From NCBI RefSeq assembly GCF_002846395.1, contig NZ_PJMU01000001.1:496001-560000 (forward strand): DNA of 64,000 bases, written 5' to 3'. This stretch comes from Pontibacter ramchanderi. GTDB taxonomy: Bacteria; Bacteroidota; Bacteroidia; Cytophagales; Hymenobacteraceae. This document shows, piece after piece, positions 19,708-51,135 of the stretch (its first letter is position 1; each line of letters begins with the position of its first letter). The position numbers and the translations under genes were made by a program. A model generated the notes under the pieces. It searched no databases and was not told the DNA's origin. It saw only the letters and a list, made by a program, of their open reading frames with translations.

Positions 19708-21099
19708 CTAATATACGTTATCATGCTTAGTAAGAATCTGACAAATAGTGAGGAAAATAATTTTAATATCAAGTAAAATAGACCAATGTTCTAAGTACCA
19801 TAGATCTGCTTGAACTCTATTGAGCATGGATCGAGTTTCCTTTGTTTCACCTCTGAATCCATTAATTTGTGCCCAACCTGTAATGCCTGGCGTTAGAAAG
19901 TGCCGAACCATATAGTTATTAATAACTTGAGAATAATCAGTGGTATGTTTAAGCATATGAGGACGTGGTCCAACTACAGACATATCACCCACAAAAACAT
20001 TAATAAACTGGGGAAGTTCGTCAATACTCGTTTTCCTGATGAATTTTCCAACTTTGGTGACACGAATATCTTCTTTACTAGCCTGTGTAACATCTGAGTA
20101 ATTATTTATTGTCATACTTCTGAACTTAAGGCAATAGAAAGGCTTATTATTTTTTCCTGAACGAAGTTGCTTAAAAAATACTGGACCTTGAGAGTCTAAT
20201 TTGATGATGATTGCCATTAACGGAATGAGCCAGCTCAGTAATAGTAGTATAACTAACATGGAGAAAAGTACATCAAAAGCTCGTTTGATTACTTCGTTAG
20301 CTTTGTTTTCTAAAGGCTCTTGCCGAGGTTTGAGAACCGGAAGATAGCCAAGCAAAGCTATTGAAAATTCACGCTGCATATTTCCCTTCATATCTGGGAC
20401 TAGCCTGAGTCGTACCATTTTATGATCGGCTTCCTGTAATAGTGTTTCTATTTTGTCACTTTGACTATAGGGTAATGCGCAATAGAGTTCACTAATTTTA
20501 TGATCGCTCGCATAACTGATACTATCATTTACACTCCCTAAATACTTTATGTAAGCCGGCACTCTACGACTATCATCATCAAAAATACCTGCTATTTGAT
20601 AGTCTAACTGTGGGTTATCCTGTAAGTATTTGTATAGATTTATGCCTGTGAGGTCTGCTCCAATAATAGCTATACTATTAGATCCCAACCAAGAGCCTCT
20701 GCGATATTTTCTAAGCAAAAGGAATGAAAAGCGCCAAGTAAGTATTAAAGTTGGAAATAGGGCAAAATAGTAAATAAACGGTGTTGGGGGAATATAAAGA
20801 TAAGGAAGCAAAAGCTTAATTAAAATTGCCATCACTGTGAACATACAAAGTGCTGCGAGGTTAGAAGTAATTACCGGAATTGATTCTCTACTAAGAATAT
20901 TACTATATATATCAAAAATATGGGAGCAGTAGAACCAGCAGAAGTTAAGAAGGAGAATGGATATACGGTAGTCATACACATTCATCCACGCCAATTTGTA
21001 GTCTGACAGTAAAAAGCATAAGTATAAAGCGCCATTTAAAATGGCATAATCTAGCACGACATTTATCCATTTAAATATGGTAGCGTATTTATGTGCCAT
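19708..21099 (-). CDS. Initiating sugar-phosphate transferase (WbaP/WcaJ-type polyprenyl glycosylphosphotransferase)
   Basis: It starts repeat-unit assembly by moving a hexose-1-phosphate from a nucleotide sugar onto undecaprenyl phosphate at the inner membrane. The 463-residue protein has four or five N-terminal membrane helices (about 10-135) and a soluble Rossmann-like CoA-binding-type domain (about 140-260, SIAIIGADLTGINLYKYL). A re-entrant hydrophobic helix (about 270-300) leads into the catalytic Bac_transf domain with LKFRSM, IDELPQFINVFVGDMSVVGPRP and TPGITGWAQINGFRG. The sugar (glucose or galactose, or an amino sugar) cannot be told. It is transcribed together with or just after the exosortase genes on the minus strand. 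Confidence 0.93.
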   Translation of the reverse strand: MAHKYATIFKWINVVLDYAILNGALYLCFLLSDYKLAWMNVYDYRISILLLNFCWFYCSHIFDIYSNILSRESIPVITSNLAALCMFTVMAILIKLLLPYLYIPPTPFIYYFALFPTLILTWRFSFLLLRKYRRGSWLGSNSIAIIGADLTGINLYKYLQDNPQLDYQIAGIFDDDSRRVPAYIKYLGSVNDSISYASDHKISELYCALPYSQSDKIETLLQEADHKMVRLRLVPDMKGNMQREFSIALLGYLPVLKPRQEPLENKANEVIKRAFDVLFSMLVILLLLSWLIPLMAIIIKLDSQGPVFFKQLRSGKNNKPFYCLKFRSMTINNYSDVTQASKEDIRVTKVGKFIRKTSIDELPQFINVFVGDMSVVGPRPHMLKHTTDYSQVINNYMVRHFLTPGITGWAQINGFRGETKETRSMLNRVQADLWYLEHWSILLDIKIIFLTICQILTKHDNVY

Positions 21100-21408
21100 A
21101 GAATGTATTATTTACTACTATTACAATCTAACTTAACCTAAATTGAAGTCAGGGTGAGATGTAACAACGAAGGAACTAGTATTAAAAAATGGCATTGATC
21201 TATCCTTATAAAAAATATACTTAAATTTAGGATTAAGGATTGCTATATACATTAAACTTTAGTGAAAGGCTTAAAATATGATGTAAAGCTGTTATTTTTG
21301 AATTCTATAAATATTTAAAATATTTATAGAATTCTTTAATTTTCTATAACGGCTTGTGTATAAAGGGCTAATATCTACTTGAAAACATATTGTAATAAAA
21401 TGTGATAA
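21100..21408. other. AT-rich gap with a long palindrome
   Basis: There is no gene here. The only outstanding element is the 35-base palindrome at 21300-21334, listed separately. The rest is AT-rich DNA between the XrtX-partner gene and the initiating transferase gene, both on the minus strand. Confidence 0.6.
21300..21334. repeat. Near-perfect 35-base palindrome (17-base arms, 1-base centre)
   Basis: GAATTCTATAAATATTT at 21300-21316 is followed by one A and its exact reverse complement at 21318-21334. As RNA it would form a long AU-rich hairpin; as DNA it could be a cruciform or a dimeric protein site. T-rich sequence follows on the plus strand only, so it is not a standard terminator for the minus-strand genes around it. 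Confidence 0.75.
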
Positions 21409-21897
21409 TCACTTATTCTTTAATTTAACCTGCAAGTATATTGTAGGAATAAATAAAATGACGGGCATAGGTGAAACAAGCAATGTATCTATCCGAAACG
21501 CTACAGTATGGAGTTGATCTAATTGTAGCTGATCAGCCGCAAAGTATAAGCCTAACGTTAGACTTAGCAAGGCTATATAAAGCAAAAAGGCAAGTTTTGT
21601 TATTACTATTTTTCTATAATAAGTTTGAATAATTAAAAGGCAAATACTACAATAAAGCAGTCTGTAGAACATATTGACCACCCTAACTGTAAGAATTTCA
21701 TAATCTATTAAAAGACCTTTTGCTTGAGCATTACGTGAAAGAAGTAGTAGAACTTTGCTACAGAAAAAATAAATTAAATCTTTAATATAAGCCTCATGAT
21801 GCCCTACAATTATTATGACTACTATAAAAACGCTGACAATCGCCCAATTTCTTGCTAAGATTAGCTGCTTATATTTCAATATCTTGCGCGTCAACAT
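21409..21897 (-). CDS. Exosortase-associated membrane protein (XrtX-partner type)
   Basis: This 162-residue protein has about four membrane segments (residues 20-36, 70-90, 100-120, 138-158) and no enzyme motif. It overlaps the 3' end of the exosortase gene by 29 bases, so the two are translationally coupled. In Bacteroidota a small multi-pass protein regularly accompanies the X-type exosortase; the position, size and topology fit that. I rely mainly on context, since the sequence itself has no hallmark residues. A role in assembly or regulation of the exosortase is inference. Confidence 0.65.
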   Translation of the reverse strand: MLTRKILKYKQLILARNWAIVSVFIVVIIIVGHHEAYIKDLIYFFCSKVLLLLSRNAQAKGLLIDYEILTVRVVNMFYRLLYCSICLLIIQTYYRKIVITKLAFLLYIALLSLTLGLYFAADQLQLDQLHTVAFRIDTLLVSPMPVILFIPTIYLQVKLKNK

Positions 21898-22390
21898 GTC
21901 TGGTCATACCTGAAAACCTCTTGACCCAATACATCCATAGCATAAATATGGCAGCATATACTACTAATGTAAAAGTGTATTTGTGATTGAAATCGACAGT
22001 ATGGCTGAAGTGGTGTGCATTAAGTGCGAGTGCAGTAACACGTAATATATTGAGCAGATTAATGAGAACTATTCCCAATGGAATATAAATGAGTTTCTTT
22101 GAAAGAGGACCCGGAAAAGCTATAATAAAACCAGCGAAAAGAGCCATTAGGACCATGCCATTACATGCATGATATACAAACACAACATCTACGCCATTTA
22201 TCTGTATCATAATATCCCTAGCCGCTGCATTGTAGCCTAGCATATTAATCGTGTAAACAGTAGCATGAACTATTTGTAAAGTGAGCCAATTATCCAAGTC
22301 ACTTAACCAGAAGTCATAAAGCAGAAACCAGCACAGGCAAAGGCCCAGGGCGTATAGCAGGAAACGTAAGACTTGCTTGTATTCTTGCAT
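21869..22390 (-). CDS. xrtX: Exosortase/archaeosortase-family transpeptidase (probably XrtX)
   Basis: Exosortases are membrane cysteine transpeptidases that cut a C-terminal sorting signal and are thought to attach the protein to a surface molecule. The 173-residue protein has about five membrane helices and the full catalytic triad of the family: Cys76 in HACNGM, Arg117 in NLLNILRVTALAL, and His136 in FNHKYTFTLVVY. At 173 residues it is a minimal form without the extra EpsI-type domain. It lies 57 bases downstream of a PID-CTERM protein gene and upstream of a small membrane partner, inside a polysaccharide locus, the classical context for exosortases. Assignment to the X subtype is from that context. 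Confidence 0.9.
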   Translation of the reverse strand: MQEYKQVLRFLLYALGLCLCWFLLYDFWLSDLDNWLTLQIVHATVYTINMLGYNAAARDIMIQINGVDVVFVYHACNGMVLMALFAGFIIAFPGPLSKKLIYIPLGIVLINLLNILRVTALALNAHHFSHTVDFNHKYTFTLVVYAAIFMLWMYWVKRFSGMTRHVDAQDIEI

Positions 22391-22447
22391 ACTTAAAATT
22401 TCAAAGTGTAAATTAAATAGGTTCGAAGCTTGTCTGCAGTTGAAGAT

Positions 22448-22693
22448 TTACTCTATCTCTTTTCTTTTCCTGCGAGAATCTATTAGTTTCTTTAGCCCAT
22501 AGGCTGCTCCAGCAACAAGCAATGCACTAGCACCTCCATCAATTGGCACTCCTGCTGCACCCCTGTTTTGACTGGGGACTTCTCCGTTTCGACTCGGTCG
22601 TACTTGAGATCTGCCCTGAGCATTAAGTTCAGTAGATAAGTGTAGTGAAATTGCAATTAGAAAAATTATAAGTTTTATGATTTGAGTTCTCAT
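22448..22693 (-). CDS. Small PID-CTERM exosortase substrate
   Basis: This 81-residue protein has a signal peptide (cleavage likely after residue 25, LNAQ) and a short Ser/Arg/Asn-rich stretch (26-48). A C-terminal sorting signal follows, with the motif V49-P50-I51-D52-G53-G54, a hydrophobic helix to about residue 67, and a basic tail (KK...RRKRK, 68-78). Motif, helix and basic tail are the tripartite layout of exosortase signals, and Pro-Ile-Asp is the PID-CTERM type. The mature part would be only about 25 residues, so it may be a small surface peptide. It is the first gene of the minus-strand exosortase operon. Confidence 0.85.
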   Translation of the reverse strand: MRTQIIKLIIFLIAISLHLSTELNAQGRSQVRPSRNGEVPSQNRGAAGVPIDGGASALLVAGAAYGLKKLIDSRRKRKEIE

Positions 22694-23221
22694 AGCTATT
22701 GTAATAAGAAGTTCACTAAACTCTTATGTCCATCTTATCAGTTGACTAATAAGAAAGACATATACAATAGAGTTAGTTAAGAAAAAAATTACGATTCGGC
22801 TAAATGAAGATATATTATTTGTAACTCACATATTTAAAACATACGTATTTAATAGTACATAGTTGACATAATATTGTTTAAACTGATTATATCATCAAAT
22901 TTCAACTTTGTTATATACAAAACAAATAATAGAAATATGCCCTAGTAACTTCTACCTGCAATTAATTATATCAGACTAAATTAATACTAGCTCCACACTT
23001 AATTAAAGGTCTTTTACACCTAAATAATATACATTTAACCAATATAATTATATTAATTATGAATATGTAAATATAATTTAATCTTTACCGTATAAGTATA
23101 TCATCTATTAATGCAAATAATTAATGGTTTAGTTGATAAACTATCTTCTTATAAGCGTTTGTATAGTTATAGATTATATAGGATTGAGAAAATCAAAATT
23201 TATAGATTCACTATAAAAGCT
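22694..23221. other. Very AT-rich divergent promoter region
   Basis: The region between the PID-CTERM gene (minus) and the oxidoreductase gene (plus) is extremely AT-rich, with stretches such as ATAATTATATTAATTAT near 23042-23058 forming short palindromes. A frame open from 23111 is best seen as non-coding upstream sequence. No exact TAnnTTTG element stands out. It must hold the divergent control signals of the two halves of the locus. Confidence 0.5.
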
Positions 23222-24274
23222 ATGATAAATGTAGGCATTATAGGCTATGGGTATTGGGGACCTAACCTGGTGAGGAATTTCTTTGCTGCGAATGACTGCC
23301 GTGTGATATCGGTGGCAGAAGCACGGCCGGAGCGCCTGAGGCTGCTGGAAAAAATCTTCCCTACAATTAAAGGCGTAAGCGACGCAGCAGAAATCATTTA
23401 TGATCCTAAGATAGATGCGGTGGTTATCGCCACTCCGGTAGCCACGCATTTTACTCTGGCACATAAAGCTCTTGCAGAAGGTAAACACGTTTTGCTCGAG
23501 AAGCCAATGACTTCCTCTACTGAAGAAGCAGAGCTTCTTATCAACCTAGCTGAGCAGAAAAGGGTACTGTTGATGGTGGACCATACCTTCCTGTACACAG
23601 GAGCAGTGCAGAAAATGAGGGACCTCGTCGATAGTCGGGAACTGGGAAACATAAAATATCTGGATTCAACTCGAATTAACCTAGGCCTATTCCAGTCAGA
23701 TGTTAATGTGCTTTGGGACCTGGCGCCTCACGATATCTCTATACTGAATTACATTGTTGATGAACGCCCGTACAGCGTAAATGCCACAGGTATAACCCAT
23801 ACCAACAATAACATCGAGAACATCGCCTACCTTACCGTAAACTACGCCTCAGGTTTTATCGCCCATTTTAACTGCTCCTGGACCAGCCCTGTAAAAGTGA
23901 GAATGATGCTGGTAGGAGGAGACCAGAAAATGATTCTGTACAACGATCTGGAGCCGACGGAAAAGATAAAGGTATACGACACAGGGTATAGCTACTCTAA
24001 TGATGAAGAAAGGAAACGAGTATTGGTTGACTACAGAACAGGGGATATACATGTTCCAAAACTAACCACAACGGAGGCGCTTCTCGGAATGGCCAATGAC
24101 TTTATTCATTGTATCCAGGAGAAGAAGCAACCTAAGTCATCCTGCCATCTGGGACTAGACGTGGTCCGGATTCTGGAGGCATCCAACAAATCAATCAAGC
24201 AAAACGGCCGGGAAGTCATACTGGAAAGTAACCTGGTGCCAACTATAACAAAAAGTAACGAAGTTTTAATCTGA
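23222..24274 (+). CDS. Gfo/Idh/MocA-family nucleotide-sugar oxidoreductase
   Basis: It is a predicted NAD-dependent dehydrogenase acting on a nucleotide sugar, for example oxidising C3 before amination. The 350-residue protein starts with the Rossmann motif GIIGYGYWG, has the family motif E-K94-P (LLEKPM), and a C-terminal alpha/beta domain with DLAPHDISILNYI. The frame extends to 23111, but the ATG at 23222 puts the Rossmann strand at the N-terminus, as usual. With the downstream LbH acetyltransferase and PLP aminotransferase it forms the set known from WlbA-WlbB/C or WbpB-D-E, which makes 3-amino or 2,3-diamino sugars. The exact sugar is inference. Confidence 0.87.
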   Translation: MINVGIIGYGYWGPNLVRNFFAANDCRVISVAEARPERLRLLEKIFPTIKGVSDAAEIIYDPKIDAVVIATPVATHFTLAHKALAEGKHVLLEKPMTSSTEEAELLINLAEQKRVLLMVDHTFLYTGAVQKMRDLVDSRELGNIKYLDSTRINLGLFQSDVNVLWDLAPHDISILNYIVDERPYSVNATGITHTNNNIENIAYLTVNYASGFIAHFNCSWTSPVKVRMMLVGGDQKMILYNDLEPTEKIKVYDTGYSYSNDEERKRVLVDYRTGDIHVPKLTTTEALLGMANDFIHCIQEKKQPKSSCHLGLDVVRILEASNKSIKQNGREVILESNLVPTITKSNEVLI

Positions 24275-24282
24275 TACAGCGT

Positions 24283-24786
24283 ATGGTGAAAGTTACAATT
24301 GATAATGACAAGCAGAGCCTGCATAATGTAAGACTCGGTAAGGACGTGAAGATTTTCAATTTCGTTAACGCCTATGGTTGCAGTATAGACGATGGTACCA
24401 AGGTGGGTACTTTTGTTGAGATCCAGAAAGGGGCTAGTATCGGCAAAAACTGCAAGATATCCAGTCACACGTTTATTTGTGAGGGGGTACACATCGCTGA
24501 TAATGTCTTTGTTGGGCACAATGTCACGTTCATTAATGACAAGTTTCCGAGGGCAACTAATGAGGACGGCTCTATGCAATTAGAAGCGGATTGGAACTGC
24601 GTGGAAACCTTTGTAGAGGACGGCGCTTCAATAGGATCCAGTGCTACAATTCTCTGTGGCATTAGGATCGGTAGAAAGGCGATTATTGGTGCGGGCTCAG
24701 TAGTTACACGGGACGTGCCTGAAAATGCTGTTGTGGCGGGAAACCCGGCTAAAATAATCAAATACACACACGAAGTCCTTGTCTGA
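24283..24786 (+). CDS. Left-handed beta-helix sugar N-acetyltransferase (WbpD/WlbB-like)
   Basis: The protein is 167 residues of hexapeptide repeats forming a left-handed beta-helix from about residue 17 to 155 (VRLGKDVKIFNFVNAYGCSI, ASIGSSATILCGIRIGRKAIIGAGSVV). It ends in the conserved AGNPAKII. Such enzymes N-acetylate the amino group added to a nucleotide sugar by the neighbouring aminotransferase, using acetyl-CoA. The conserved His of the family is probably in FVGHNVTFIND near residue 84. It lies 8 bases after the oxidoreductase gene and overlaps the next gene by 8 bases. Confidence 0.88.
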   Translation: MVKVTIDNDKQSLHNVRLGKDVKIFNFVNAYGCSIDDGTKVGTFVEIQKGASIGKNCKISSHTFICEGVHIADNVFVGHNVTFINDKFPRATNEDGSMQLEADWNCVETFVEDGASIGSSATILCGIRIGRKAIIGAGSVVTRDVPENAVVAGNPAKIIKYTHEVLV

Positions 24787-25912
24787 TATGCCTACACTTG
24801 CTCTGCAGGAAAAAATTCCTTGCCTTGACCTGAAAGGTCAACACCAGCAGATTAAAGAGGAAATATTCGAGGCTTTTGAAAAGGTGTATAACGACACCGC
24901 TTTTTCAGGAGGTCCGTTTGTAGAAGAGTTTGAAAAAAACTTCGCCGCTTGCTGCAAGACAAACTATGCAGTAGGGGTGAACAATGGTACCTCCGCCTTA
25001 CACCTGGCCATGCTGGCACTGGGCATTGGGGTAGGAGACGAGGTGATCGTACCGGCTAACACATTTATCGCAACCGCCTGGGGGGTGTCCTATACCGGAG
25101 CCACTCCAGTGTTTGTCGACTGCACTCCTGATACCTGGCAGATCGACGCTTCCAGAATCGAGGAGAAAATATCATCCCGGACAAAAGCTATTATAGGGGT
25201 ACACCTTTATGGACAACCTTTTGATGTGGAGGCTTTGCAGGTGATCTGCCAGAAGTATGGCCTTTATCTGCTTGAAGATGCAGCTCAGGCCCAGGGAGCA
25301 ACATATAATGGCATTCCAGTAGGTGGCTTTGGCGTAATGGCCTGCTTCAGCTTTTATCCCGGTAAGAACCTAGGCGCCTGTGGAGAGGCCGGAGGTATAA
25401 CAACCAATCAGGAGCATTATTACAAGCACTTACTCAGCCTGCGCAACCACGGCTCTACCGTGCGGTATTATCACGATGAGATCGGGTTTAACATGCGTAT
25501 GGGCGGATTGGAAGGAGCCTCTCTGAGTGTGAAGCTGAAATACCTTCCTTCCTGGAATAACCGCAGAAAGGAAATTGCCAAACGATACCAGCAGGAAATT
25601 ACAAATGAGCAGCTGCAACTTCAGGCGAAACCTGATTGGGCTGAGTCTATTTATCACCTTTTCGTGGTCACCACTGCAGACAGGGAGGGACTTTTTAAAT
25701 ACCTGAACGAACACAATATCTTTCCGGGCCTGCACTATCCTGTGCCCTGCCATCTACAGAAGGCTTATTCCCATTTGGGATATCAGGAAGGGGACTGTCC
25801 GCATGCTGAGTATCTGGCGAGCCATTGTGTCTCCTTGCCTATGTATGCAGAACTGACAGATGAAGAGGTCGCCTATGTGATCGATGTTCTAAATGCCTAT
25901 AGGAATGCCTAA
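24779..25912 (+). CDS. DegT/DnrJ/EryC1-family PLP sugar aminotransferase
   Basis: It transfers an amino group (usually from glutamate) to a keto nucleotide sugar. The 377-residue protein has the DegT fold: VGVNNGTSALHLAMLALGIGVGDEVIVPANTF near residues 62-93, VHLYGQP, the Asp of EDAAQAQG, and the PLP-binding Lys196 in SFYPGKNLGACGEAG. The 8-base overlap with the acetyltransferase gene indicates coupled expression. With the oxidoreductase upstream it most likely aminates the 3-keto sugar made there. A start at the second Met (MPTLAL) is possible. Confidence 0.93.
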   Translation: MSDMPTLALQEKIPCLDLKGQHQQIKEEIFEAFEKVYNDTAFSGGPFVEEFEKNFAACCKTNYAVGVNNGTSALHLAMLALGIGVGDEVIVPANTFIATAWGVSYTGATPVFVDCTPDTWQIDASRIEEKISSRTKAIIGVHLYGQPFDVEALQVICQKYGLYLLEDAAQAQGATYNGIPVGGFGVMACFSFYPGKNLGACGEAGGITTNQEHYYKHLLSLRNHGSTVRYYHDEIGFNMRMGGLEGASLSVKLKYLPSWNNRRKEIAKRYQQEITNEQLQLQAKPDWAESIYHLFVVTTADREGLFKYLNEHNIFPGLHYPVPCHLQKAYSHLGYQEGDCPHAEYLASHCVSLPMYAELTDEEVAYVIDVLNAYRNA

Positions 25913-26549
25913 AAAAAAACTCATCATTTTTCCCTTTAACGGTAACGGAATTGAGGCACTGGACTGCATCAATTTTGATGACTATGAGCTTGTTGGTTTT
26001 GTGGATGATGATCAGCAGAAGAGGGCGGATCTATACGAGATCTTCACCAGGGATATCTTGCAGCGATACAAAGAGCTTTTTGTGTTAGCCGTGCCAGGGA
26101 GCGCTACTTCTTTTCAGAGAAGGAAGGAAATAATTGCTTCCCTGGAACTCGACAGGAGCAGGTACATCACAGCCATACATCCGAAAGCTGCGGTTGGAAG
26201 AAACGTGAAAATAGGAGCCAATTGCCTGGTTATGGCAGGAGCAGTAATCACGAGCAACGCTTGTATTAAGGATCATGTCTGCATCCTGCCTAATTCGGTC
26301 ATTCACCATGATGTGGTAGTGGAGGAATATACCCTGATCGGAAGTAATGTGGTAGTAGCAGGAGGGACCCTGATTGGAAAGAATTGCTATATCGGGAGTG
26401 GCTCCAATGTTATGAATGGTATCAGCATAGGTGATGGAGCGCTGATTGGCTTGGGAAGTAATGTGCTGAAGAGTGTCACAGGTAACGCAAAGATGGCGGG
26501 GAACCCTGCCAGGGATCTGAATGAACAGCTACTATCAACTTCAATATAA
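25905..26549 (+). CDS. PglD-like sugar O/N-acetyltransferase
   Basis: The 214-residue protein has a Rossmann-like PglD N-terminal domain (KKLIIFPFNGNGIEALDCI, VGFVDDD) of about 85 residues. A left-handed beta-helix follows (about 95-205; VGRNVKIGANCLVMAGAVITSN, HDVVVEEYTLIGSNVVVAGGTLIG) and ends in MAGNPARDL. Relatives acetylate UDP-linked amino sugars or sialic-acid-type precursors. An ATG 12 bases upstream (25893) is in frame; I prefer 25905, which gives the usual N-terminus. It overlaps the aminotransferase stop by 8 bases. Confidence 0.87.
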   Translation: MPKKKLIIFPFNGNGIEALDCINFDDYELVGFVDDDQQKRADLYEIFTRDILQRYKELFVLAVPGSATSFQRRKEIIASLELDRSRYITAIHPKAAVGRNVKIGANCLVMAGAVITSNACIKDHVCILPNSVIHHDVVVEEYTLIGSNVVVAGGTLIGKNCYIGSGSNVMNGISIGDGALIGLGSNVLKSVTGNAKMAGNPARDLNEQLLSTSI

Positions 26550-26617
26550 ATGTCAATTTGATTAGTCTCCTCTCAGCATTAGCGGAATCGTTGTCCTTAG
26601 TTTAAATAATCAGGCTC

Positions 26618-27598
26618 ATGCATAAAAAGATCCAGAATTCCAGAATACTAATCACAGGTGGTGCCGGCTTTATTGGCTCATACTTGGTGGAGGAGTTATT
26701 AAAAAGCAGCCCGGCAAAGATCATCATCCTTGATAACCTGGTGCGGGGCAGCTTTGAGAATATGAATTCTTTTATAGGTAACTCAACTGTTGAGTTTATT
26801 GAAGGAGATATAAGAGATGCCGCACTTCTGGAAAGGTGCATAGCCGATGCAGATTACGTGTTCCACATGGCTGCTTTACGTATAAATGCTTGTGCAGCAA
26901 ACCCAAAAGAAGGATTTGAAGTGATGCTGCGGGCTACCTTTGAGTTGGCAGAACTCTGTGTGAAGTATAAAGTAAAGAAGCTGATCTATAGTTCGAGTGC
27001 ATCAGTATACGGTCTTGCACAGCATTTCCCTACTCCTGAAACAGATAACCCTTATGATAACCAGACGTTTTATGGCGGCGCAAAACTATGGGGGGAACAG
27101 TTGTTCCGGAGCTACAAATTCATGTACGGGCTAGATTATGTGGCTTTGCGTTACTTCAATGTATATGGACCAAGGATGGATACCGACGGTAAGTATACCG
27201 AAGTGATGATTCGCTGGCTTGATTGTATACGTGACGGTAATTCTCCGCTTATCTACGGGGACGGCAGTACCAGCATGGACTTTGTTTATGTGCGGGATGT
27301 AGCAAAAGCAAATGTGGCTGCACTAGTCTCGGAGGTCACAGATCAAGCCTTTAATGTCGGTAATTGTGAAGAAACGAGTTTGAAGCAGTTACTGGAGGCA
27401 CTATTAAAAGTGAACAAGTCTGCCCTTATACCTGCATACCGGGAAGAAAACACGGTGAATCCTGTAAGCAGAAGATTGGCTGACAACAGGAAGGCGAAAG
27501 AGCTACTTCATTTCGAGCCGACCTTCACCCTGGAAGAAGGTTTAAGCGAATTGAGCCAGTGGTATTTTGAAAAGAAAACTTCAGCATTGCCAATATGA
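26618..27598 (+). CDS. NAD-dependent nucleotide-sugar epimerase/dehydratase
   Basis: An extended short-chain dehydrogenase of 326 residues acting on a nucleotide sugar, by family either a 4-epimerase or 4,6-dehydratase. The cofactor motif GGAGFIG is at residues 15-21, and the catalytic set is the Ser-Ser-Ala-Ser-Val-Tyr strand plus F-Y-G-G-A-K near residue 150. The C-terminal half has FNVYGPRMD and the YGDGSTSMDFVYVRDVA segment. Its last four bases overlap the start of the next gene (ATGA). With the aminotransferase that follows, it resembles the dehydratase/aminotransferase pairs that make UDP-linked amino sugars, but the substrate is not provable here. Confidence 0.88.
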   Translation: MHKKIQNSRILITGGAGFIGSYLVEELLKSSPAKIIILDNLVRGSFENMNSFIGNSTVEFIEGDIRDAALLERCIADADYVFHMAALRINACAANPKEGFEVMLRATFELAELCVKYKVKKLIYSSSASVYGLAQHFPTPETDNPYDNQTFYGGAKLWGEQLFRSYKFMYGLDYVALRYFNVYGPRMDTDGKYTEVMIRWLDCIRDGNSPLIYGDGSTSMDFVYVRDVAKANVAALVSEVTDQAFNVGNCEETSLKQLLEALLKVNKSALIPAYREENTVNPVSRRLADNRKAKELLHFEPTFTLEEGLSELSQWYFEKKTSALPI

Positions 27599-28740
27599 TA
27601 CCGATTGCAAAACCCTACCTGACTGAGGACGAAGCACAGGCTGCTTACGACACGATACTGACGGGCTGGATCACCCAAGGCCCGAAGGTGCAAAAATTCG
27701 AAGAAAAATTCGCGGCCTATACAGGGGCAAAGTATGCTGTTGCAGTATCTAATTGTACCACTGCTTTACATCTATCCATGATTGTGGCAGGAATAGGGCC
27801 CGGTGACGAAGTCATTTGCCCTTCGATGAGCTATATTGCTACTGCAAATGCAATTCAATACGTTGGTGCTACACCCGTTTTTGCAGAGGTACAGCAAGCA
27901 ACATGTAACCTCGACCCAATTGACGCAGAGAAGCGCATTACTAAAAATACCAAAGCCATACTGCTGGTGCATCAGATAGGCATGCCAGCAGATATTGAAG
28001 CATTTCAGGAGCTATGTGACAGGTATAATCTGAAGCTGATCGAGGACGCCGCCTGTGCTGCTGGCTCTGCTTACAAAGGCAGGAAGATCGGCTCACATTC
28101 CGAGCTTGTCTGCTTTTCTTTTCATCCCAGGAAGGTCATCTCTACAGGAGATGGAGGAATGATTACTACAAACAGGGAAGACTACTATAACAGGCTAAAA
28201 CTCCTACGGCAACATGGGATGTCTGTCAACGACCGGGTGCGCCATGAAGCCAGCAGGATCATTTTTGAAGATCACGTGGAGGTGGGGTATAACTATCGCA
28301 TGACCGATATACAAGCTGCAGTGGGTATCAAACAGCTGGAGAAGCTGGACTGGATTGTGGAGGAGCGGAGAAAGATTGCTTCTGCCTACCATGAGGCTTT
28401 CAAAGTCATTGATTTTATCGGGTTGCCTCCTGAGGAAGAAGGATACTTTAGCAACTATCAGTCTTATTGCATTTATCTGAAACCTTCAAGTCCGATAGAC
28501 AGAAACACCCTGATGCAGGAATTATTAGACAGAGGTATAGCCAGTAGAAGGGGGATCATGAACTCACATAGGGAAACGGCCTACAGAGATTCCCATAGAA
28601 GTGTAGAATTGCCAATCTCGGAGGACTTGCAGGATCGCTCGATCATTTTGCCATTGTATGTGCCGATGAGGGAAGATGAAATAAGCCTTATAACCAATGC
28701 ATTTAAAGATATTCTTATTAAAAAAACAATAGTTATATAA
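27595..28740 (+). CDS. Second DegT/DnrJ/EryC1-family PLP sugar aminotransferase
   Basis: A 381-residue aminotransferase with the same fold as the one at 24779 but clearly a separate lineage. It starts IPIAKPYLTEDEAQAAYDTILTGWITQGPKV, as do PseC/ArnB/PglE-type enzymes. It has AVSNCTTALHLS near residue 50, EDAACAAG, and PLP Lys180 in SFHPRKVISTGDGG. Its ATGA overlap with the epimerase gene shows tight coupling and suggests the two work on one sugar. It closes the higher-G+C nucleotide-sugar block; a terminator-like inverted repeat lies about 260 bases downstream. Confidence 0.92.
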   Translation: MIPIAKPYLTEDEAQAAYDTILTGWITQGPKVQKFEEKFAAYTGAKYAVAVSNCTTALHLSMIVAGIGPGDEVICPSMSYIATANAIQYVGATPVFAEVQQATCNLDPIDAEKRITKNTKAILLVHQIGMPADIEAFQELCDRYNLKLIEDAACAAGSAYKGRKIGSHSELVCFSFHPRKVISTGDGGMITTNREDYYNRLKLLRQHGMSVNDRVRHEASRIIFEDHVEVGYNYRMTDIQAAVGIKQLEKLDWIVEERRKIASAYHEAFKVIDFIGLPPEEEGYFSNYQSYCIYLKPSSPIDRNTLMQELLDRGIASRRGIMNSHRETAYRDSHRSVELPISEDLQDRSIILPLYVPMREDEISLITNAFKDILIKKTIVI

Positions 28741-29109
28741 ATTCTTTCTATACTTTAATTGTCACAAGTCAGATTTATCTATGTGAACAGACCGTAACAC
28801 AGGGTGAACAAAACCAACGTTATATTCGAAAGCTTTTAGTGCGTTGATCACTTTTAATGTTAGGGAGTAAGCATTATTATAGTAAGGTAATATTATATAT
28901 TACTTATCTAGCCTTAATGAAAATTCAACTTAGGCATAAGTGATTAGCATGAATTGAATAGCACTAGCACACAAGCATAACATAACTTAAAATACTTTTA
29001 ATTATCCTATACCAATGATAAAAAGCGCCGTATAGGATAATAAAGTTTTTTCATTGCATGTAACCAATTGATCTTTTTCTTGCCACTATAGGGCTTTAAT
29101 GTACACTCT
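28741..29109. other. Gene-free gap before the export genes
   Basis: These 369 AT-rich bases separate the nucleotide-sugar block from the export genes. The only clear element is the 12-base inverted repeat at 29001-29041, listed separately. G+C falls abruptly here, which supports a different origin or age of the two blocks. Confidence 0.55.
29001..29041. repeat. Perfect 12-base inverted repeat upstream of the Wza-like gene
   Basis: ATTATCCTATAC (29001-29012) and GTATAGGATAAT (29030-29041) are exact reverse complements with a 17-base spacer. A run of six T residues follows at 29046-29051. It could be a terminator for the upstream operon or an operator for the export operon that starts 69 bases later. 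The arms contain CCTATAC, a variant of the word enriched in the first 19 kb. Confidence 0.65.
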
Positions 29110-29886
29110 ATGAAAGCCATAACACTTTATGTTATATTTTTACTTAGCATAGCTTCTTGCTCTCCTAGGAACCTGACATATCTCAGCGATTTACATCAAG
29201 AAATTACATTATCTGAGGCAATAGTAAATGATGTAGATCCTAAAATACAGCCAAATGACTTGTTAAATATCACCATAACGAGCTTAAGTGCTGAGTCTAA
29301 TATATTGTTCAACAGAGGCGTGATTCAAACAGGTAGCAGCGGGAGTTCTGAATCATCATTAAAAACAACAGGGTATTTAGTTGATAAAAGCGGTGATATC
29401 ACGTTGCCAGTGCTGGGAAAAGTTAAATTAGCGGGTTTGACAAAAGATCAAGCTGCAGAAAAGCTAGTATTCGAGTTGGGAAAGTATGCAAGGGACCCGA
29501 TCATTAATATCAACTTCCTCAATTTTAAAGTGACTGTAATTGGGGAAGTTAATAATCCATCCACATTCACTGTGCCTAGCGAAAGAATAAATGTATTTGA
29601 AGCTTTAGGCTTGGCCGGTGATATGACAGCTTATGGCAAAAGGGACAATGTGCTATTAATTAGGGAACAAGATGGAGAACGTACAACTACACGTATAAAC
29701 CTGAACAATAAAGACGTGCTGCAATCCCCATACTTCTACCTGCAGCAGAATGATATAATATATGTTGAGCCAGATAGGGTGAGGGCTGTACAAGTGAGTT
29801 CAGGCCGAAGTAACATGCAGTATGGCCTATCAATTGGACTTGCGCTTGTATCTGTCGTGACACTATTGGTAACTCAGGTTTTTTAA
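29110..29886 (+). CDS. Wza/BexD-type polysaccharide export lipoprotein
   Basis: It forms the outer-membrane export channel for the polysaccharide. The 258-residue precursor has a lipobox (LLSIASC at residue 18), then the Poly_export domain (about 45-125, IQPNDLLNITI and GYLVDKSGDITLPVLGKVKLAGLTK). An SLBB domain follows (about 138-215, VTVIGEVNNPSTFTVPSERINVFEALGLAG). The C-terminal hydrophobic segment (about 235-258) is typical of the Bacteroidota form. The stop lies 9 bases before the Wzc-like gene, its partner in the trans-envelope complex. Confidence 0.93.
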   Translation: MKAITLYVIFLLSIASCSPRNLTYLSDLHQEITLSEAIVNDVDPKIQPNDLLNITITSLSAESNILFNRGVIQTGSSGSSESSLKTTGYLVDKSGDITLPVLGKVKLAGLTKDQAAEKLVFELGKYARDPIININFLNFKVTVIGEVNNPSTFTVPSERINVFEALGLAGDMTAYGKRDNVLLIREQDGERTTTRINLNNKDVLQSPYFYLQQNDIIYVEPDRVRAVQVSSGRSNMQYGLSIGLALVSVVTLLVTQVF

Positions 29887-29895
29887 AAGATATCT

Positions 29896-32244
29896 ATGAA
29901 GAGTAGAGAGTTATTTCCCTTAAGATCTGAGCAGCCTGAGTCTAAAGATATTAGGGAGGTTGTTTCCAAGTATCTGCAATACTGGTATTTATTTATAATT
30001 GGTGGAGCTCTTAGTTTGGCTGCCGCTCATTTTTACTGCTCATATTATACTGTCCCACATTACAGTATCAGCAGCACTATTCTTCTTAAAGGCGGAGAAA
30101 ATGACGCTGACGCAGGTGGTTTGGGAGAGATTGGTATGATAAAATCATCCAAAAACATCAATAATGAGATAGAAGTGCTTTCTTCGATAAGCTTGATGCA
30201 GCGCGTTGTCAGTGAATTAGGGCTTTCAACAAGTTTTTTTGTTGAAGGCCGCGTGAAAGACATAGAGATATATGGGAGGGAAGTTCCCATAAAGTTGATC
30301 GTTAGCCATTTTGACACAGCTGCTTACGGAAAAAGTATTACTGTTAATTTAAAATCTGCAACTGAGTATGAAATTGAGGAGGAGCCCGAAAAGTTATTGG
30401 TATATAGGTATGGACAACAAGTAACAAGGCCCTACGGAATATTCAAAATAGTGATAGCTCCAGGCATTGCTGCCAAGGATATACCTACAAACCAGAAAAT
30501 TAAGGTGGTTTTTCAGAATATCAAAGCAGTAGCTAGGCACTACAACTACGCCTTAATGATTTATCCGAAAAGGGAGGAGGCTAGCGTACTGCAAATAAAC
30601 TTAGTTGATCCTATACCTGAGAAGGGGAGAAATATTATTAACAAACTTGTTGAGGTCTATAGTAAAGAAGCCGTTGAGGATAAGAACCTAAAGGCAGCCA
30701 GTACTATAGAGTTTCTGGATGAACGATTAAAATATCTTACCAGTGAGCTTTCTGATGTTGAGAAAGATGTAGAACAGTATAAACGAAAAAACGAGCTCAC
30801 AGATGTAGGTGCACAGGCTACCCAATATCTCGCGCAGGCAAGTGACTACAACAGCAAATTATCTGAATGGGCCATACAAATCGATATTTTAGAGTCGATC
30901 GAAGAGTATATGAGGAGTAGTAATAATCAATATAAAATGGTTCCGAGTACTCTAACCATTCAGGACCCAACTTTATCAGGCTTAATAGGAAAGTTCAATG
31001 AACTTCAATTGGAGCGTGAGCGAATTCTTCGCAATGCCTTCCCGGATAACCCCTTGGTGAAGAATATCGATGAGCAACTGAAGGATCTCAGAGCAAATAT
31101 TATTGAGAACCTTCGCAATATAAAGAAGGGCTTAGTAATTACGAGTAACAATTTAAAAGCCAACTCAGGTCAGTACCAGACAAAGATAAGTAAGGTTCCT
31201 TCTATGGAACGGGAGTTATTAGAAATAAACCGTCAACAGGCCATAAAACAAAACTTGTATTTATACCTTCTTCAGAAACGGGAAGAGTCTGCCTTATCAT
31301 TAGCTGCAAATATATCAAACTCCAGAATCATCGATCCTGCTATAGCAACAGATTACCCGGTTAGTCCTAACAAACAAACTATATACTTAATGTCTGTTTT
31401 GCTTGGACTGTCTATACCATTTGCTGGAATATTTGTAAAAGATTATCTGAACGATAAAGTGCAAACTCAGCGGGATGTAGAACAATTGACGGATACGCCA
31501 ATTCTTGGCGATATCATGCACAATGATTTTGAAACGCTTGTGGTAACAACGGGTAAACGAACGCCCATTGTTGAAATGTTTCGGCTCATCCGAGCCAAAC
31601 TTCAGTTTGCAGCGGTTGACAAAGAAAACAAAACGATGTTAGTCACATCTTGTATGAGTGGAGAGGGAAAAACCTTCTTCAGCATTAATATTGCTGCTAC
31701 TTTGGCATTAACTGGAAAAAAAGTTGTAGTTCTGGAACTGGATCTTCGCAATCCTAATATATCAAAGGAACTGGGACTTACTAAAGGCCCTGGAATTTCC
31801 GATTACCTGATCTCAAATGAAATTTCGATAGCCGATATTATCAAGCCTTTGGAAGAACCTCCTGGCATGTCTATAATAAGTTCTGGCCCCATCCCTCCTG
31901 ATCCGGCAGAATTGATGATGTCTTCCAAGTTAGCTGATTTAATAAATGACTTGAAGCATAGTTTTGATCACATAGTTATTGATACCGCGCCAGTAGGGCT
32001 GGTGGCAGATGCCTTTAGTCTTAGCCCAATTGTAGATTCAACGATCTATGTTGTGAGGTATAACTATACAAGTAAGAAGCATCTAAAAACAGTAGATGAT
32101 ATAAGGCGAAACAAAGAGTTAAAGTACCCCATGATCGTGATGAATGATGCAAAGAAAGGTAATGGTAGTTACTATGGATATGGGTACGGCTATGAAAATA
32201 AGAGCACAAAGAACAAGAAGTTCTGGAAGACAATAAATATATAA
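29896..32244 (+). CDS. Wzc-like polysaccharide co-polymerase and BY tyrosine autokinase
   Basis: It controls chain length and export through tyrosine phosphorylation cycles. The 782-residue protein has a Wzz domain with the first membrane helix near 35-52, a long periplasmic coiled-coil with GNVR-type ending (about 270-480), and a second membrane helix near 495-515. A cytoplasmic BY-kinase domain follows, with Walker A SCMSGEGKT near residue 585, Walker A' LELDLRNP near 615, and Walker B IVIDTAP. The tyrosine-rich tail YYGYGYGYENK is the autophosphorylation cluster. No separate phosphatase gene (Wzb) is in the window. Confidence 0.94.
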   Translation: MKSRELFPLRSEQPESKDIREVVSKYLQYWYLFIIGGALSLAAAHFYCSYYTVPHYSISSTILLKGGENDADAGGLGEIGMIKSSKNINNEIEVLSSISLMQRVVSELGLSTSFFVEGRVKDIEIYGREVPIKLIVSHFDTAAYGKSITVNLKSATEYEIEEEPEKLLVYRYGQQVTRPYGIFKIVIAPGIAAKDIPTNQKIKVVFQNIKAVARHYNYALMIYPKREEASVLQINLVDPIPEKGRNIINKLVEVYSKEAVEDKNLKAASTIEFLDERLKYLTSELSDVEKDVEQYKRKNELTDVGAQATQYLAQASDYNSKLSEWAIQIDILESIEEYMRSSNNQYKMVPSTLTIQDPTLSGLIGKFNELQLERERILRNAFPDNPLVKNIDEQLKDLRANIIENLRNIKKGLVITSNNLKANSGQYQTKISKVPSMERELLEINRQQAIKQNLYLYLLQKREESALSLAANISNSRIIDPAIATDYPVSPNKQTIYLMSVLLGLSIPFAGIFVKDYLNDKVQTQRDVEQLTDTPILGDIMHNDFETLVVTTGKRTPIVEMFRLIRAKLQFAAVDKENKTMLVTSCMSGEGKTFFSINIAATLALTGKKVVVLELDLRNPNISKELGLTKGPGISDYLISNEISIADIIKPLEEPPGMSIISSGPIPPDPAELMMSSKLADLINDLKHSFDHIVIDTAPVGLVADAFSLSPIVDSTIYVVRYNYTSKKHLKTVDDIRRNKELKYPMIVMNDAKKGNGSYYGYGYGYENKSTKNKKFWKTINI

Positions 32245-32287
32245 AGTTTCAAATTACTTCAACTATAGGTTTCTAAACAATAGAATA

Positions 32288-33766
32288 ATGACAGTTAAAC
32301 AAGCTTCCTATAGACAAATAATAAAGGCGACTTCCATATTCGGTGGAGTGCAGATTTTTAACATTATTATTTCCATTGTAAAAACTAAGTTTGTTGCCAT
32401 TCTTCTTGGTCCAGCTGGTATGGGGATAGCCGGCTTATTAGTTTCAACAACTGCATTAATAGGAAGTTTAACAAACTTTGGTTTAGCAACTAGTGCCGTG
32501 AGAAATGTCTCTGCAGCAGCTGCTAGCGAGGAAAAAATAGGCTTGACAGTCTCTGTTCTGCGTCGATTAGTTTGGCTTACAGGTCTGCTAGGTGCATTGT
32601 TTACACTTTTCCTCTCCTCTTACCTTAGTAAAATAACTTTTGGCAATGAAGAGTATACTCAGGCGTTTATGCTAATTTCTATAACGCTGCTTTTATCTCA
32701 ATTGGCAGCGGGGCAGCACGTAGTGTTGCAAGGTTTGCGTAAGCTCAAGTATTTAGCAAAGGCTGACATAGCGGGTATGCTTGTCGGGTTATTTGTTTCC
32801 GTACTTATTTATTATTGGTTAGGAGTACAAGGTATTGTGCCAGTAATTATAATAAGTTCTATTATATCATTTTGCTTCTCTTGGTTTTTCGCATCTAAAG
32901 TCCAAATCCCTAAAGTAAGAGCGAGTATATCTACCCTAAAGTCAGAGGGGGGAGGAATGCTAAAGATGGGATTTATGCTAACACTAAGTGGTCTGTTGCC
33001 AATAATTACTTCTTATTTCCTAAGGATCTTCATAAGTAGAACTGGTGGAGTAGAACAAGTAGGATTATACAGTGCAGGATTCGCAATGATCAATACCTAT
33101 GTTGGAATGATTTTCACAGCAATGACGACAGATTATTACCCACGTTTAACCGAAGCATCCGTAGATAATGTGGCTACGAATAACGCTATCAATGAGCAGG
33201 CTGAGATTGCTATTCTTATCATTGCACCCATTCTGGTTGGTTTTATTGCTTTTGTAGATTGGGCAATTGTTCTTCTTTATTCTAAAGATTTTCTAAAGAT
33301 AAATGGCATGTTACACTGGGCAGCCTTAGGTATGTTCTTCAAAACAGCCAGTTGGGCAATAGGATTTATTTTTTTAGCTAAGGGAGCTAATAGTGTTTTC
33401 TTCTGGAGTGAATTGGCTGCAAATCTTTATATAGTGTTGTTGAATGTCTTTGGGTATAAGCTTTTTGGCTTAGATGGACTAGGAGTGGCATTTTTCCTTG
33501 GGTACTTTATGTTGCTTCTGCAAAACTATGTTGTTTCTAAAAGACTGTATAAATTCAGATTTGTTAAAGATTTCTATACAATATTTCTAGTCCAGTTTGT
33601 AATTGGATTAGTGAGTTTTATAGTCTTCAAAAAGGTAATCTCACCCTATTCTTTGATCATTAATGGGGTACTTATCGGAATGTCAATGGTCTATTCTTAT
33701 AAAGAGCTAAACAAAAGAATTGACATAAGACGATCACTAATAAAAATGACAGAGAAGGTTAGATAA
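32288..33766 (+). CDS. Wzx-type oligosaccharide flippase
   Basis: It is predicted to flip undecaprenyl-linked repeat units across the inner membrane. The 492-residue protein is almost wholly hydrophobic, with 12-14 predicted helices and the N-terminal pattern of the polysaccharide transporter family (TSIFGGVQIFNIIISIVKTKFVAILLGPAGMGIAGLLVS). Charged residues are few and sit in loops, as usual. Position right after the co-polymerase gene and presence of a Wzy-like polymerase downstream support a Wzx/Wzy-dependent pathway rather than an ABC exporter, for which I see no gene. Confidence 0.9.
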   Translation: MTVKQASYRQIIKATSIFGGVQIFNIIISIVKTKFVAILLGPAGMGIAGLLVSTTALIGSLTNFGLATSAVRNVSAAAASEEKIGLTVSVLRRLVWLTGLLGALFTLFLSSYLSKITFGNEEYTQAFMLISITLLLSQLAAGQHVVLQGLRKLKYLAKADIAGMLVGLFVSVLIYYWLGVQGIVPVIIISSIISFCFSWFFASKVQIPKVRASISTLKSEGGGMLKMGFMLTLSGLLPIITSYFLRIFISRTGGVEQVGLYSAGFAMINTYVGMIFTAMTTDYYPRLTEASVDNVATNNAINEQAEIAILIIAPILVGFIAFVDWAIVLLYSKDFLKINGMLHWAALGMFFKTASWAIGFIFLAKGANSVFFWSELAANLYIVLLNVFGYKLFGLDGLGVAFFLGYFMLLLQNYVVSKRLYKFRFVKDFYTIFLVQFVIGLVSFIVFKKVISPYSLIINGVLIGMSMVYSYKELNKRIDIRRSLIKMTEKVR

Positions 33767-48665: not shown

Positions 48666-49308
48666 GTATACTTGAAATTGTTGGACGCCATGTTAGCATA
48701 ACAGTTAAGCTGTATTTAGAAACGTAAAAAATTTTTTCCCCCATTTACAAAATCTATTCACGAATTATTTAAATTATTTTTAGTTGAATAATTCTTTTTT
48801 TACGTATTATTAATATTTAATCTTGTTTTGTTTATCAATAAATACTCAAACTTACAAAGCCTTATCTATTTGATCTAAGTTTAGAATGATTGAAAGCAAA
48901 AACTATACATTATATGCTTCCAATTACATTAATGAAGGATTCTGGTGATTATTAGGAATTCACAAATCTAGAAGCTAGCGAAGCACTCAAAACAAATGCA
49001 TATTTTGTCAGCTATTCAAAGCGGATTGAAGAGTATCTAACTTACTGACAAAGAAGTAAGGCATTTAAGAGCAGGTATTCTGCAATTGTTAAGAAATAGA
49101 CAGATAAAATTGTCATCTATATCGCCTGTGGACCTAGAAATTTTTATGTTCCGCTTTAGGGTAGTCCTAATTTTTGATCATGGTGGGTTTTGATACGTTG
49201 AACGTGGCCATTTAACACTCCGGGGATATTGCCACTGTTTTATGTTAGCAGGTATATAAAACTTACTAGATTGAACAATGTTAAAGCGTCTTGAAATTGG
49301 ATACTTTT
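48666..49308. other. Long AT-rich gap, possibly holding decayed mobile DNA
   Basis: No open frame with family resemblance is present in these 643 bases. The 3' part (49204-49242) has a GTGGCCATTTAACACTCCGG segment followed by GATATTGCCAC, which recalls the repeated TGGCCA...CCGG blocks near the ends of IS21-type elements in this phylum. No transposase remnant accompanies it. The rest is featureless AT-rich DNA. Confidence 0.35.
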
Positions 49309-51135
49309 ATGTGTGGAATAATAGGAAAAATAGCTTTCAGTAAGAGTATTCTACCGCTCCCGCAAATTGATTTGATACGTCATAGAGGGCCAGACGGGAA
49401 AGGTGAATGGATTAACTGTGAAGGTAATATTTACTTTGGTCACACAAGATTGGCCATTCTTGAGCCAACTCAAGCAGGATATCAGCCAATGCAGAGCTCA
49501 TCTAAGCGTTTCACAATAATATTTAATGGTGAAATATATAATCACCTGAACTTACGTTCTTTAATTCCTTTCAACTCTTGGCATGGCACTTCTGACACAG
49601 AAACTCTTATCGAGTTACTTGAATTCATGGGAACTAAAGCGCTTTCCCTACTGAAAGGTATGTTTGCTTTTGCTCTTCATGATTCAGTAGATAATTCTGT
49701 TTTGTTAGTTAGAGATAGACTAGGAATAAAACCTTTGTGGGTTCGGTTTGATGCAGCTGCGTGTACTTTTGCCTCAGAAATTAAGCCTCTTCTGAATCCC
49801 GATGATAAATTACCCTCCAGTCAAGCAATAAGTGAGTTTGTTGCTTTTGGGCGTATGACTGGAGTAGATGAAATATTTAGTGGAGTTAATGCCGTTTCTC
49901 CAGGAAGTCTGATAAAGTTGAATAATAAAGGAGAAATAAAAACAGAGAATTGGTGGACACCTGAATCGGCTCCATTAGCTAAACTTATACCTTATAATCA
50001 AAATTATTATGTTCAGAAAGTTAATAAGCTTGTAAAAAGTTCTGTAACTGAACATCTGATTTCCGATGTGGGTGTGGGGGCATTTTTAAGTGGGGGGATT
50101 GATTCTAGTATTATAGTGCTTGTAGCAGGTAAAGAACTGGGGAAAAATCTTAAAACTTTCACGGTTGGCTTTCATGAAAAGGCCTTTGATGAGCGGAAAG
50201 TTGCCAGAAAAGTAGCTCAAAAAGCTGGATCCGAACATTTTGAAATAGAAGTGAGTGAAGAGAGTTGTGTTTCTTGGGTAAAAGAAGCTGTGTATAACCT
50301 AGATCTTCCTTCTGTTGATGCCATTAATACTTACATTGTGTCTAAAGTGGTTAGAGAACAGGGGATGAAAGTTGCACTCTCTGGTCTTGGTGGAGATGAA
50401 TTATTCGGAGGATATCCAAGCTTCAAAAACGTTCCGCTTCTCACCTGGCTGAGCGCTTTACCAAAGAGGTATAGTGAGCAACTGGTTAAGCTAATGCCAA
50501 AACAACTGAAGCAAAAACTTTCTGGGCTTAACGGCTTTTCTGCGGCTGAGTTGACTGTGTCAAGAAGAAGATTTACATCCGTTTCAGAACTATGCAAAAT
50601 GGGTTTAAGTACAGGGCACTCGTATGTCCCTCCTCCTCCAGAAGGTGTTGATAAAATGGCAATTATTTCTTGGGCTGAAATTTATGGCTACATGATACCC
50701 TTGCTTCTACGCGATAGCGATCAAATGAGCATGGCTTTAGGGCTAGAAATCCGTGTTCCCTTCCTAGATCATCATTTAGTTGAAGAAGTTTTAAAAATAC
50801 CACAAAGCTATAAGAAAGGTTATGGTGTAAAACCGCTTCTTATAGATGCTTTTCGTTCGGACTTACCTAGAGAGGTTTATAACCGGCCAAAACAGGGCTT
50901 TGTTTTACCTATGGAAAATTGGATGAGGGGGCATTTAGCAGAATTTACAGAGGAGGGCATATATGCCGCTGCAGATTTGCTTGGTCTTTCTGAGCCTCTA
51001 CGACAAAGAGAAATCTTTATGAAAGGGCAATCTCATTGGACCCGTTTGTGGTTGTGGAGCGTACTGGGGCATTGGCTTTTAAATCATAAGGCTATACCAG
51101 TAGAAACATCGACTTCTAATATTGGAATAAGTTAA
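49309..51135 (+). CDS. asnB: Asparagine synthase (glutamine-hydrolysing), AsnB family
   Basis: It transfers glutamine-derived ammonia to aspartate or, in polysaccharide loci, possibly to a uronic acid or other carboxyl group of the glycan. The 608-residue protein begins Met-Cys-Gly-Ile-Ile, putting the nucleophilic Cys2 of the class II glutaminase at the N-terminus once Met is removed. This fixes the start at ATG 49309 rather than the in-frame TTG at 49291. The glutaminase domain runs to about 210, and the synthetase domain has the ATP-pyrophosphatase loop SGGIDSS at 261-267 and LGGDELFGGYP near 360. Intact copies inside polysaccharide clusters are common. The amidation target is inferred only. 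Confidence 0.92.
   Translation: MCGIIGKIAFSKSILPLPQIDLIRHRGPDGKGEWINCEGNIYFGHTRLAILEPTQAGYQPMQSSSKRFTIIFNGEIYNHLNLRSLIPFNSWHGTSDTETLIELLEFMGTKALSLLKGMFAFALHDSVDNSVLLVRDRLGIKPLWVRFDAAACTFASEIKPLLNPDDKLPSSQAISEFVAFGRMTGVDEIFSGVNAVSPGSLIKLNNKGEIKTENWWTPESAPLAKLIPYNQNYYVQKVNKLVKSSVTEHLISDVGVGAFLSGGIDSSIIVLVAGKELGKNLKTFTVGFHEKAFDERKVARKVAQKAGSEHFEIEVSEESCVSWVKEAVYNLDLPSVDAINTYIVSKVVREQGMKVALSGLGGDELFGGYPSFKNVPLLTWLSALPKRYSEQLVKLMPKQLKQKLSGLNGFSAAELTVSRRRFTSVSELCKMGLSTGHSYVPPPPEGVDKMAIISWAEIYGYMIPLLLRDSDQMSMALGLEIRVPFLDHHLVEEVLKIPQSYKKGYGVKPLLIDAFRSDLPREVYNRPKQGFVLPMENWMRGHLAEFTEEGIYAAADLLGLSEPLRQREIFMKGQSHWTRLWLWSVLGHWLLNHKAIPVETSTSNIGIS

Follow-up and report, generated by a model that had tools for sequence, protein, structure and literature searches.

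A small XrtX exosortase system from Pontibacter ramchanderi and the peptide-sized PID-CTERM products that may partner type IX secretion cargos in its relatives

Exosortases are discussed mainly with exopolysaccharide. A gene trio from Pontibacter ramchanderi was found to be an XrtX exosortase system whose PID-CTERM substrate class appears, as a rule, to consist of peptide precursors. The gene for such a precursor lies, in many relatives, directly behind that of a large secreted protein bearing a type IX secretion system (T9SS) sorting signal, which hints that the two products work together. On balance, we think it probable that the XrtX system makes a peptide and that in many relatives this peptide partners one T9SS cargo. 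Peptide precursors encoded behind T9SS cargos would link two systems of the cell surface and offer specific candidates for testing.

The window (the whole 64,000-nucleotide stretch of contig NZ_PJMU01000001.1 analysed here) carries the trio on its minus strand (Table 1). Because all three products exceed their NCBIfam cut-offs, the trio is a catalogued XrtX system, already modelled there; the scores and gene layout confirm the original prediction, made from the sequence alone, and both searches it proposed, with the PID-CTERM and XrtX models, gave matches over the cut-off. Along the minus strand, the 81-residue ORF is followed after 57 bp by the exosortase gene, which overlaps the membrane protein gene by 29 bp; a further 309 bp separates the latter from a gene for a WcaJ-type transferase. 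The small protein reads from its sequence much as described earlier, with a signal-peptide-like start, an LNA/Q site (Q26), PIDGG from residue 50, a hydrophobic helix and a basic tail, and it is matched by the PID-CTERM model at its C terminus (residues 49-72). Given a cut before Gln26, the Q26-D52 segment is 27 residues long, close to the 25 or so that had been estimated for the mature substrate. The exosortase has the expected Cys76, Arg117 and His136, invariant in an alignment of six sequences. Its overlapping neighbour, foreseen as a four-helix membrane protein, is modelled with six helices, of which four are long and two are short (pLDDT 89). The closest named relatives by XrtX are Pontibacter species (63-70% identity among the best five).

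Table 1. Features discussed in the text. Positions are those of the window unless a locus is named.
Feature	Position	Strand	Evidence or remark
PID-CTERM mini-protein, 81 aa	22448..22693	-	NF046080, 43.6 bits (cut-off 26)
Exosortase XrtX, 173 aa	21869..22390	-	NF046081, 192.6 bits (cut-off 170)
XrtX-associated membrane protein, 162 aa	21409..21897	-	NF046082, 105.3 bits (cut-off 75)
WcaJ-type undecaprenyl-phosphate glucose phosphotransferase; neighbouring gene, uncertain member of the operon	19708..21099	-	TIGR03023, 443.8 bits (cut-off 410.75); same order in L064-L068
AT-rich palindrome (17-bp arms flanking a single base) separating the genes for the associated protein and the sugar transferase	21300..21334		
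Divergent polysaccharide-type genes, context only	23111..33766	+	NCBIfam matches, nearly all under curated cut-offs
PI[NDS] mini-proteins behind large cargos	L306:4998-5219, L306:9326-9535, L309:4511-4726, L313:3327-3542, L312:5518-5796		L312 belongs to another family

The operon had also been placed directly upstream of the initiating sugar transferase. The gene order agrees with this, and a shared transcript is uncertain: the 309-bp gap holds the palindrome, and the transferase therefore need not share the transcript of the trio. A promoter and terminator scan gave no more signals than were found in shuffled sequence. The divergent genes comprise those for a sugar dehydrogenase, an acetyltransferase, aminotransferases, an epimerase, an export protein, a Wzc-like kinase and a Wzx-like flippase. 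Further along the window, an asparagine-synthase-like protein (49291-51135) resembles the amidotransferase of the XrtA system (301.5 bits, cut-off 816.9). The genome contains one exosortase match (PF09721) only, and the suggested search for further proteins with the same C terminus returned no other PID_CTERM match over the cut-off, the two weaker ones scoring 18.0 and 13.7 bits.

XrtX exceeded its cut-off in 46 of 395 genomes sampled across the phylum, PID_CTERM matches were found in 62, and both occurred in 44 (44 of the 46 XrtX genomes; Fisher p 3e-41, not corrected for relatedness). All 62 PID_CTERM genomes fall within the 116 having any XrtX-model match, as judged by comparing the lists by eye, and the pairing of XrtX with PID-CTERM is a system, not chance. 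The xrtX loci fetched were the best 80 of 146. Among these, the associated protein adjoins xrtX in 75, and a PID gene is encoded on the same strand, at most 1.5 kb upstream, in 52 and elsewhere in the locus in 4; co-occurrence of the genes in related genomes, as anticipated by the original prediction, was thus found. A PID gene was not found within the fetched stretch of 24 of these 80 loci, which counts against the XrtX/PID model. Only 7 of the 395 genomes were matched by the model of the associated protein, which therefore, by its model, belongs to a subset of XrtX systems. One apparent large PID-CTERM protein (973 aa, L150:5983-8904) was rejected, as it is an MSEP-CTERM protein (TIGR04286, 742.9 bits); since its 28.9 bits exceed the PID_CTERM cut-off, another sorting class is admitted at this value and the model is not fully specific.

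The size of the presumed product was estimated in 184 distinct PID proteins, after duplicates, one ORF of more than 200 aa and ORFs without the motif had been left out, with lengths taken by regular expression. An A-x-A/Q site behind a hydrophobic stretch was present in 172 of the 184, and in these the segment from the Gln through the Asp of PID has a median length of 17 residues (5-95% range 14-38). Its composition is 27% Pro, 13% Gly, 0.7% Lys and 0.1% Cys. To judge by sequence, the PID-CTERM class as a rule encodes peptide precursors. A Gln directly after the signal peptidase site corresponds to the Q-rule of Bacteroidetes, by which the Gln is converted to pyroglutamate (PMC5837995 and PMC10653852, in the sections available). 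According to the same sections of PMC5837995 the rule is limited to Bacteroidetes, so that applying it to the more distant classes sampled is an extension.

PID genes directly behind genes with T9SS signals were first seen in Botryobacter and Rufibacter loci. Neighbours were counted in 120 regions that surround PID_CTERM matches and, with few exceptions, are distant from xrtX. These regions were chosen from the best matches listed; matches beside an XrtX over the cut-off were left out, as were some at the ends of contigs and certain others. The choice of the first 40 regions preceded any look at their neighbours, and the other 80 were further listed matches added after the pattern was noticed. 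ORFs were called by a greedy script, PID genes were counted only with the upstream gene in view, and T9SS signals were recognised by a local HMM seeded from four PF18962 matches. A same-strand T9SS cargo gene lies directly upstream of 102 of the 130 PID genes sampled, related strains and near-identical paralogues being counted uncollapsed and L150 being kept as a miss, with a median gap of 70 bp; the same test on other ORFs of L064-L263 and the window gave 49 of 1715. The pairing is present in 39 of the 50 genomes and in 9 of the 10 families, with 71 of 80 in family f24 and 31 of 50 in the remaining families. One region that was kept (L247) adjoins a weak XrtX-model match, and its two PID ORFs, one of them a 40-aa fragment, were each scored as paired. 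All 29 paired cargos that were scanned match TIGR04183 and PF18962, that is, the type A T9SS signal. Among the best 80 of 146 xrtX loci, 21 of 58 PID genes are behind a cargo gene, including that of Pontibacter cellulosilyticus (L072), and this low share counts against the cargo partnership. Outside the window, no neighbour of PID genes is as strongly conserved as the T9SS cargo gene. The pattern is not seen in the window itself, where the gene upstream of the PID gene is divergent, sugar-dehydrogenase-like and without a T9SS signal; the genome has 39 T9SS-signal matches.

The paired cargos differ in their N-terminal parts, which are ice-binding-like, lamin-tail, laminin-G, kelch, RCC1 and others. 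They share a stretch of about 390 residues, in most of them ending just ahead of the T9SS signal (median 16 residues). No match to Pfam or NCBIfam was obtained for any of 58 such stretches (the A3 set). A local HMM, for which 29 of the 123 paired cargos served as the training set, finds this domain in 119 of the 123, and in 90 of the 94 held out from training. Of the other ORFs with a T9SS signal in these loci, 23 of 95 have it, a figure that is not a genome-wide rate because each locus had been selected for a PID gene or xrtX. A confident structure model of the domain is all-beta (pLDDT 90, pTM 0.65) and had no clear match in the PDB. With at most four candidates scored per genome, the domain was found in 132 of the 395 genomes, and 58 of these are among the 62 with PID_CTERM; its occurrence without PID_CTERM counts against the cargo partnership. 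The local HMM found no match in the genome of the window. In four Hymenobacter xrtX loci (L095, L112, L113 and L123), a gene with the cargo domain was observed on the opposite strand, and no PID gene was found.

From these sequences and gene orders we infer the following route. The mini-protein would be exported via Sec and cut before Gln26 by signal peptidase I, and Gln26 would then cyclise to pyroglutamate in keeping with the Q-rule. XrtX, by its Cys76, Arg117 and His136, would cut at PID52 or close to it, so that the helix and basic tail stay behind in the inner membrane, and would pass the 27-residue peptide to an envelope acceptor, presumably with help from the associated membrane protein. 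In many relatives, not the nearest ones, the peptide is encoded behind, and is probably made for, one large T9SS-secreted protein with the conserved beta domain ahead of its sorting signal, and it may help this cargo to dock at the surface or to be finished there. The peptide of the window stands alone in a polysaccharide locus; as its genome gave no cargo-domain match and its upstream gene is divergent, the partnership cannot explain this copy.

The trimmed peptide might instead be joined to, or aid the assembly of, the polysaccharide of the neighbouring locus, with the T9SS pairing elsewhere as a second use. The polysaccharide context originally described is real in the window, where an asparagine-synthase-like protein, a Wzc-like kinase and a polysaccharide export protein are encoded; the trio also precedes a WcaJ homologue in L064-L068, as it does in the window, and the missing cargo domain fits such a role. 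In Flavobacterium johnsoniae, according to the sections available of PMC10936215, deletion of an aminotransferase gene in a polysaccharide cluster has the same list of phenotypes as deletion of xrtF. As a general rule, a tie to polysaccharide is not supported. Among the best 80 of 146 xrtX loci, 14 have a homologue of the WcaJ, Wza-like or Wzc-like protein of the window no more than 5 kb from xrtX (L064-L071, L074, L116, L129, L134, L135 and L138), six of them outside L064-L071, and the other 66 have none at that distance. The commonest other neighbour clusters in these 80 loci are MoxR-like (34 loci), MutS-like (19) and T9SS-signal proteins (18), and on clustering and homologue count we reject polysaccharide as the general partner. 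In the window, moreover, the transferase, export, chain-length, kinase and amidotransferase models of the XrtA system all score under their cut-offs (TIGR03013, 204.3 of 393.35 bits; TIGR03027, 53.1 of 180; TIGR03007, 95.6 of 278.85; TIGR03018, 118.7 of 230.65; TIGR03108, 301.5 of 816.9). In P. cellulosilyticus the trio lies behind the gene for a T9SS cargo, and the 20 kb fetched showed no homologue of the polysaccharide genes of the window. We regard this alternative as unlikely; in Pontibacter itself the peptide may yet have a polysaccharide role. The original interpretation is thus supported in part, for the XrtX/PID-CTERM system with a peptide-sized product and not for a general tie to polysaccharide.

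It seems less likely still that the mini-protein serves as a helper in the periplasm or membrane, a chaperone or adaptor that attends the T9SS cargo before secretion and is cleared by XrtX with no conjugate formed. The gene order behind the cargo and a small, variable, proline-rich middle would suit such a helper, but the C terminus matches a sorting-signal model, the family co-occurs with XrtX, and the predicted peptide has only about 14-38 residues. That the mini-protein is an uncleaved membrane hairpin, not a substrate, which regulates XrtX or the sugar transferase would agree with its gene being beside xrtX in the window and in 52 of the best 80 of 146 loci, and with the lack of a second PID_CTERM match over the cut-off in the genome of the window, yet it is very improbable given the signal-peptidase-like A-x-A/Q of 172 of 184 proteins and the several scattered PID_CTERM copies far from xrtX in other genomes.

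The preferred reading, a peptide that in many relatives partners a T9SS cargo, can be set beside known systems. The trio is identical in kind to the XrtX/PID-CTERM system of NF046081, NF046080 and NF046082 and differs from it in nothing; peptide size and T9SS pairing are added here, the comparison being with model names and descriptions, and the curators may know more. The XrtA/PEP-CTERM system likewise has an exosortase, a tripartite C-terminal signal and exopolysaccharide neighbours, whereas the window has PID rather than PEP, system-specific neighbour models under their cut-offs and peptide-sized substrates. A precedent for a cargo gene followed by a dedicated partner gene is given by type B T9SS cargos and their PorP/SprF shuttle genes (PMC12618676, in the sections available). 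Unlike that outer-membrane shuttle, the partner here would be a peptide precursor processed at the inner membrane, and the paired cargos that were scanned are type A. The word exosortase is absent from the available full text of two T9SS papers (PMC12618676 and PMC10202324). In the literature searched, which leaves most subscription papers outside, no mention of PID-CTERM was found, nor any relevant use of XrtX in titles and the beginnings of abstracts; some papers there, as far as their available parts go, name type IX secretion and exosortase together. These negatives are thus weak evidence of novelty. Three things look new: the class of peptide-sized substrates, the gene pairing with T9SS cargos, and the domain that these cargos have in common.

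The XrtF system of Flavobacterium (TIGR04128 and TIGR04127; Fjoh_1448/Fjoh_1449) is a further relative. The XrtX of the window scores 86 bits against the XrtF cut-off of 90 and so falls short of it, and for the associated protein the match to TIGR04127 is weak (17.7 bits, cut-off 35, E 0.003). The sections available of PMC10936215, a 2024 study, report that F. johnsoniae loses biofilm and zorbs on deletion of xrtF or its associated gene, that the phenotypes listed for xrtF, Fjoh_1449, porU and porZ deletions are identical, and that the exosortase substrates are a matter for future work. As the same list is given there for deletions of Fjoh_0651 (a hypothetical protein) and Fjoh_0334 (the polysaccharide-cluster aminotransferase), it is consistent with a T9SS link and does not single T9SS out. 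This parallel concerns XrtF, not XrtX.

Mini-proteins similar to those of the XrtX system are often present in XrtF genomes, differing in a PI[NDS] motif, and two scanned cargos ahead of them carry the type C T9SS signal (NF033708). In genus g15, which we infer from XrtF and its family to be Flavobacterium or close kin, such mini-proteins are sometimes encoded no more than 55 bp behind cargos bearing the shared domain (4 of 30 cargo loci in one set, and in a set of 20 regions five mini-proteins, listed in Table 1, of which that of L312 comes from another family). No adjoining mini-protein was seen in the cargo arrays of G206, G084, G025 and G057. One PI[NDS] mini-protein scores 19.6 bits with PID_CTERM, under the cut-off. 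A profile of six mini-protein C termini matches 57 of 81 g15 genomes at E 0.05, namely 51 of 68 with XrtF versus 6 of 13 without (p 0.05); at E 0.001 the counts are 38 of 68 and 6 of 13 (p 0.56). Among g15 genomes at least 97% complete, they are 40 of 51 versus 1 of 8 at E 0.05 (p 0.0006) and 30 of 51 versus 1 of 8 at E 0.001 (p 0.02), this filter having been chosen afterwards, when five of the six XrtF-negative genomes with a mini-protein match were incomplete (76-96%). In those six genomes no further exosortase came up with the general exosortase model, which gave matches in two of all 13. The tie between mini-protein and XrtF is thus weak in all 81 genomes, and only the near-complete genomes make the co-occurrence suggestive.

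The sub-threshold PI[NDS] mini-proteins are candidate XrtF substrates. A broader proposal, which we put forward tentatively and hold to be possible though doubtful, is that XrtX and XrtF are both peptide-finishing enzymes of the T9SS surface. Short peptides, blocked at the N terminus and modified at the C terminus, would dock or finish particular large cargos via the beta domain, forming an attachment route beside PorU and PorP/SprF, and the variants in XrtF genomes would be the missing XrtF substrates.

Mini-ORFs were picked by regular expression in 23 of 30 loci, and 11 of the 21 with an upstream gene in view lie behind such a cargo. Those of L318 and L339, with no upstream gene in view, look like false picks. 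In eight others of the 21 (L324, L325, L326, L330, L332, L333, L335 and L336) the upstream genes end alike, and in six of these, which were read, we take the gene to be that of peptide chain release factor 3.
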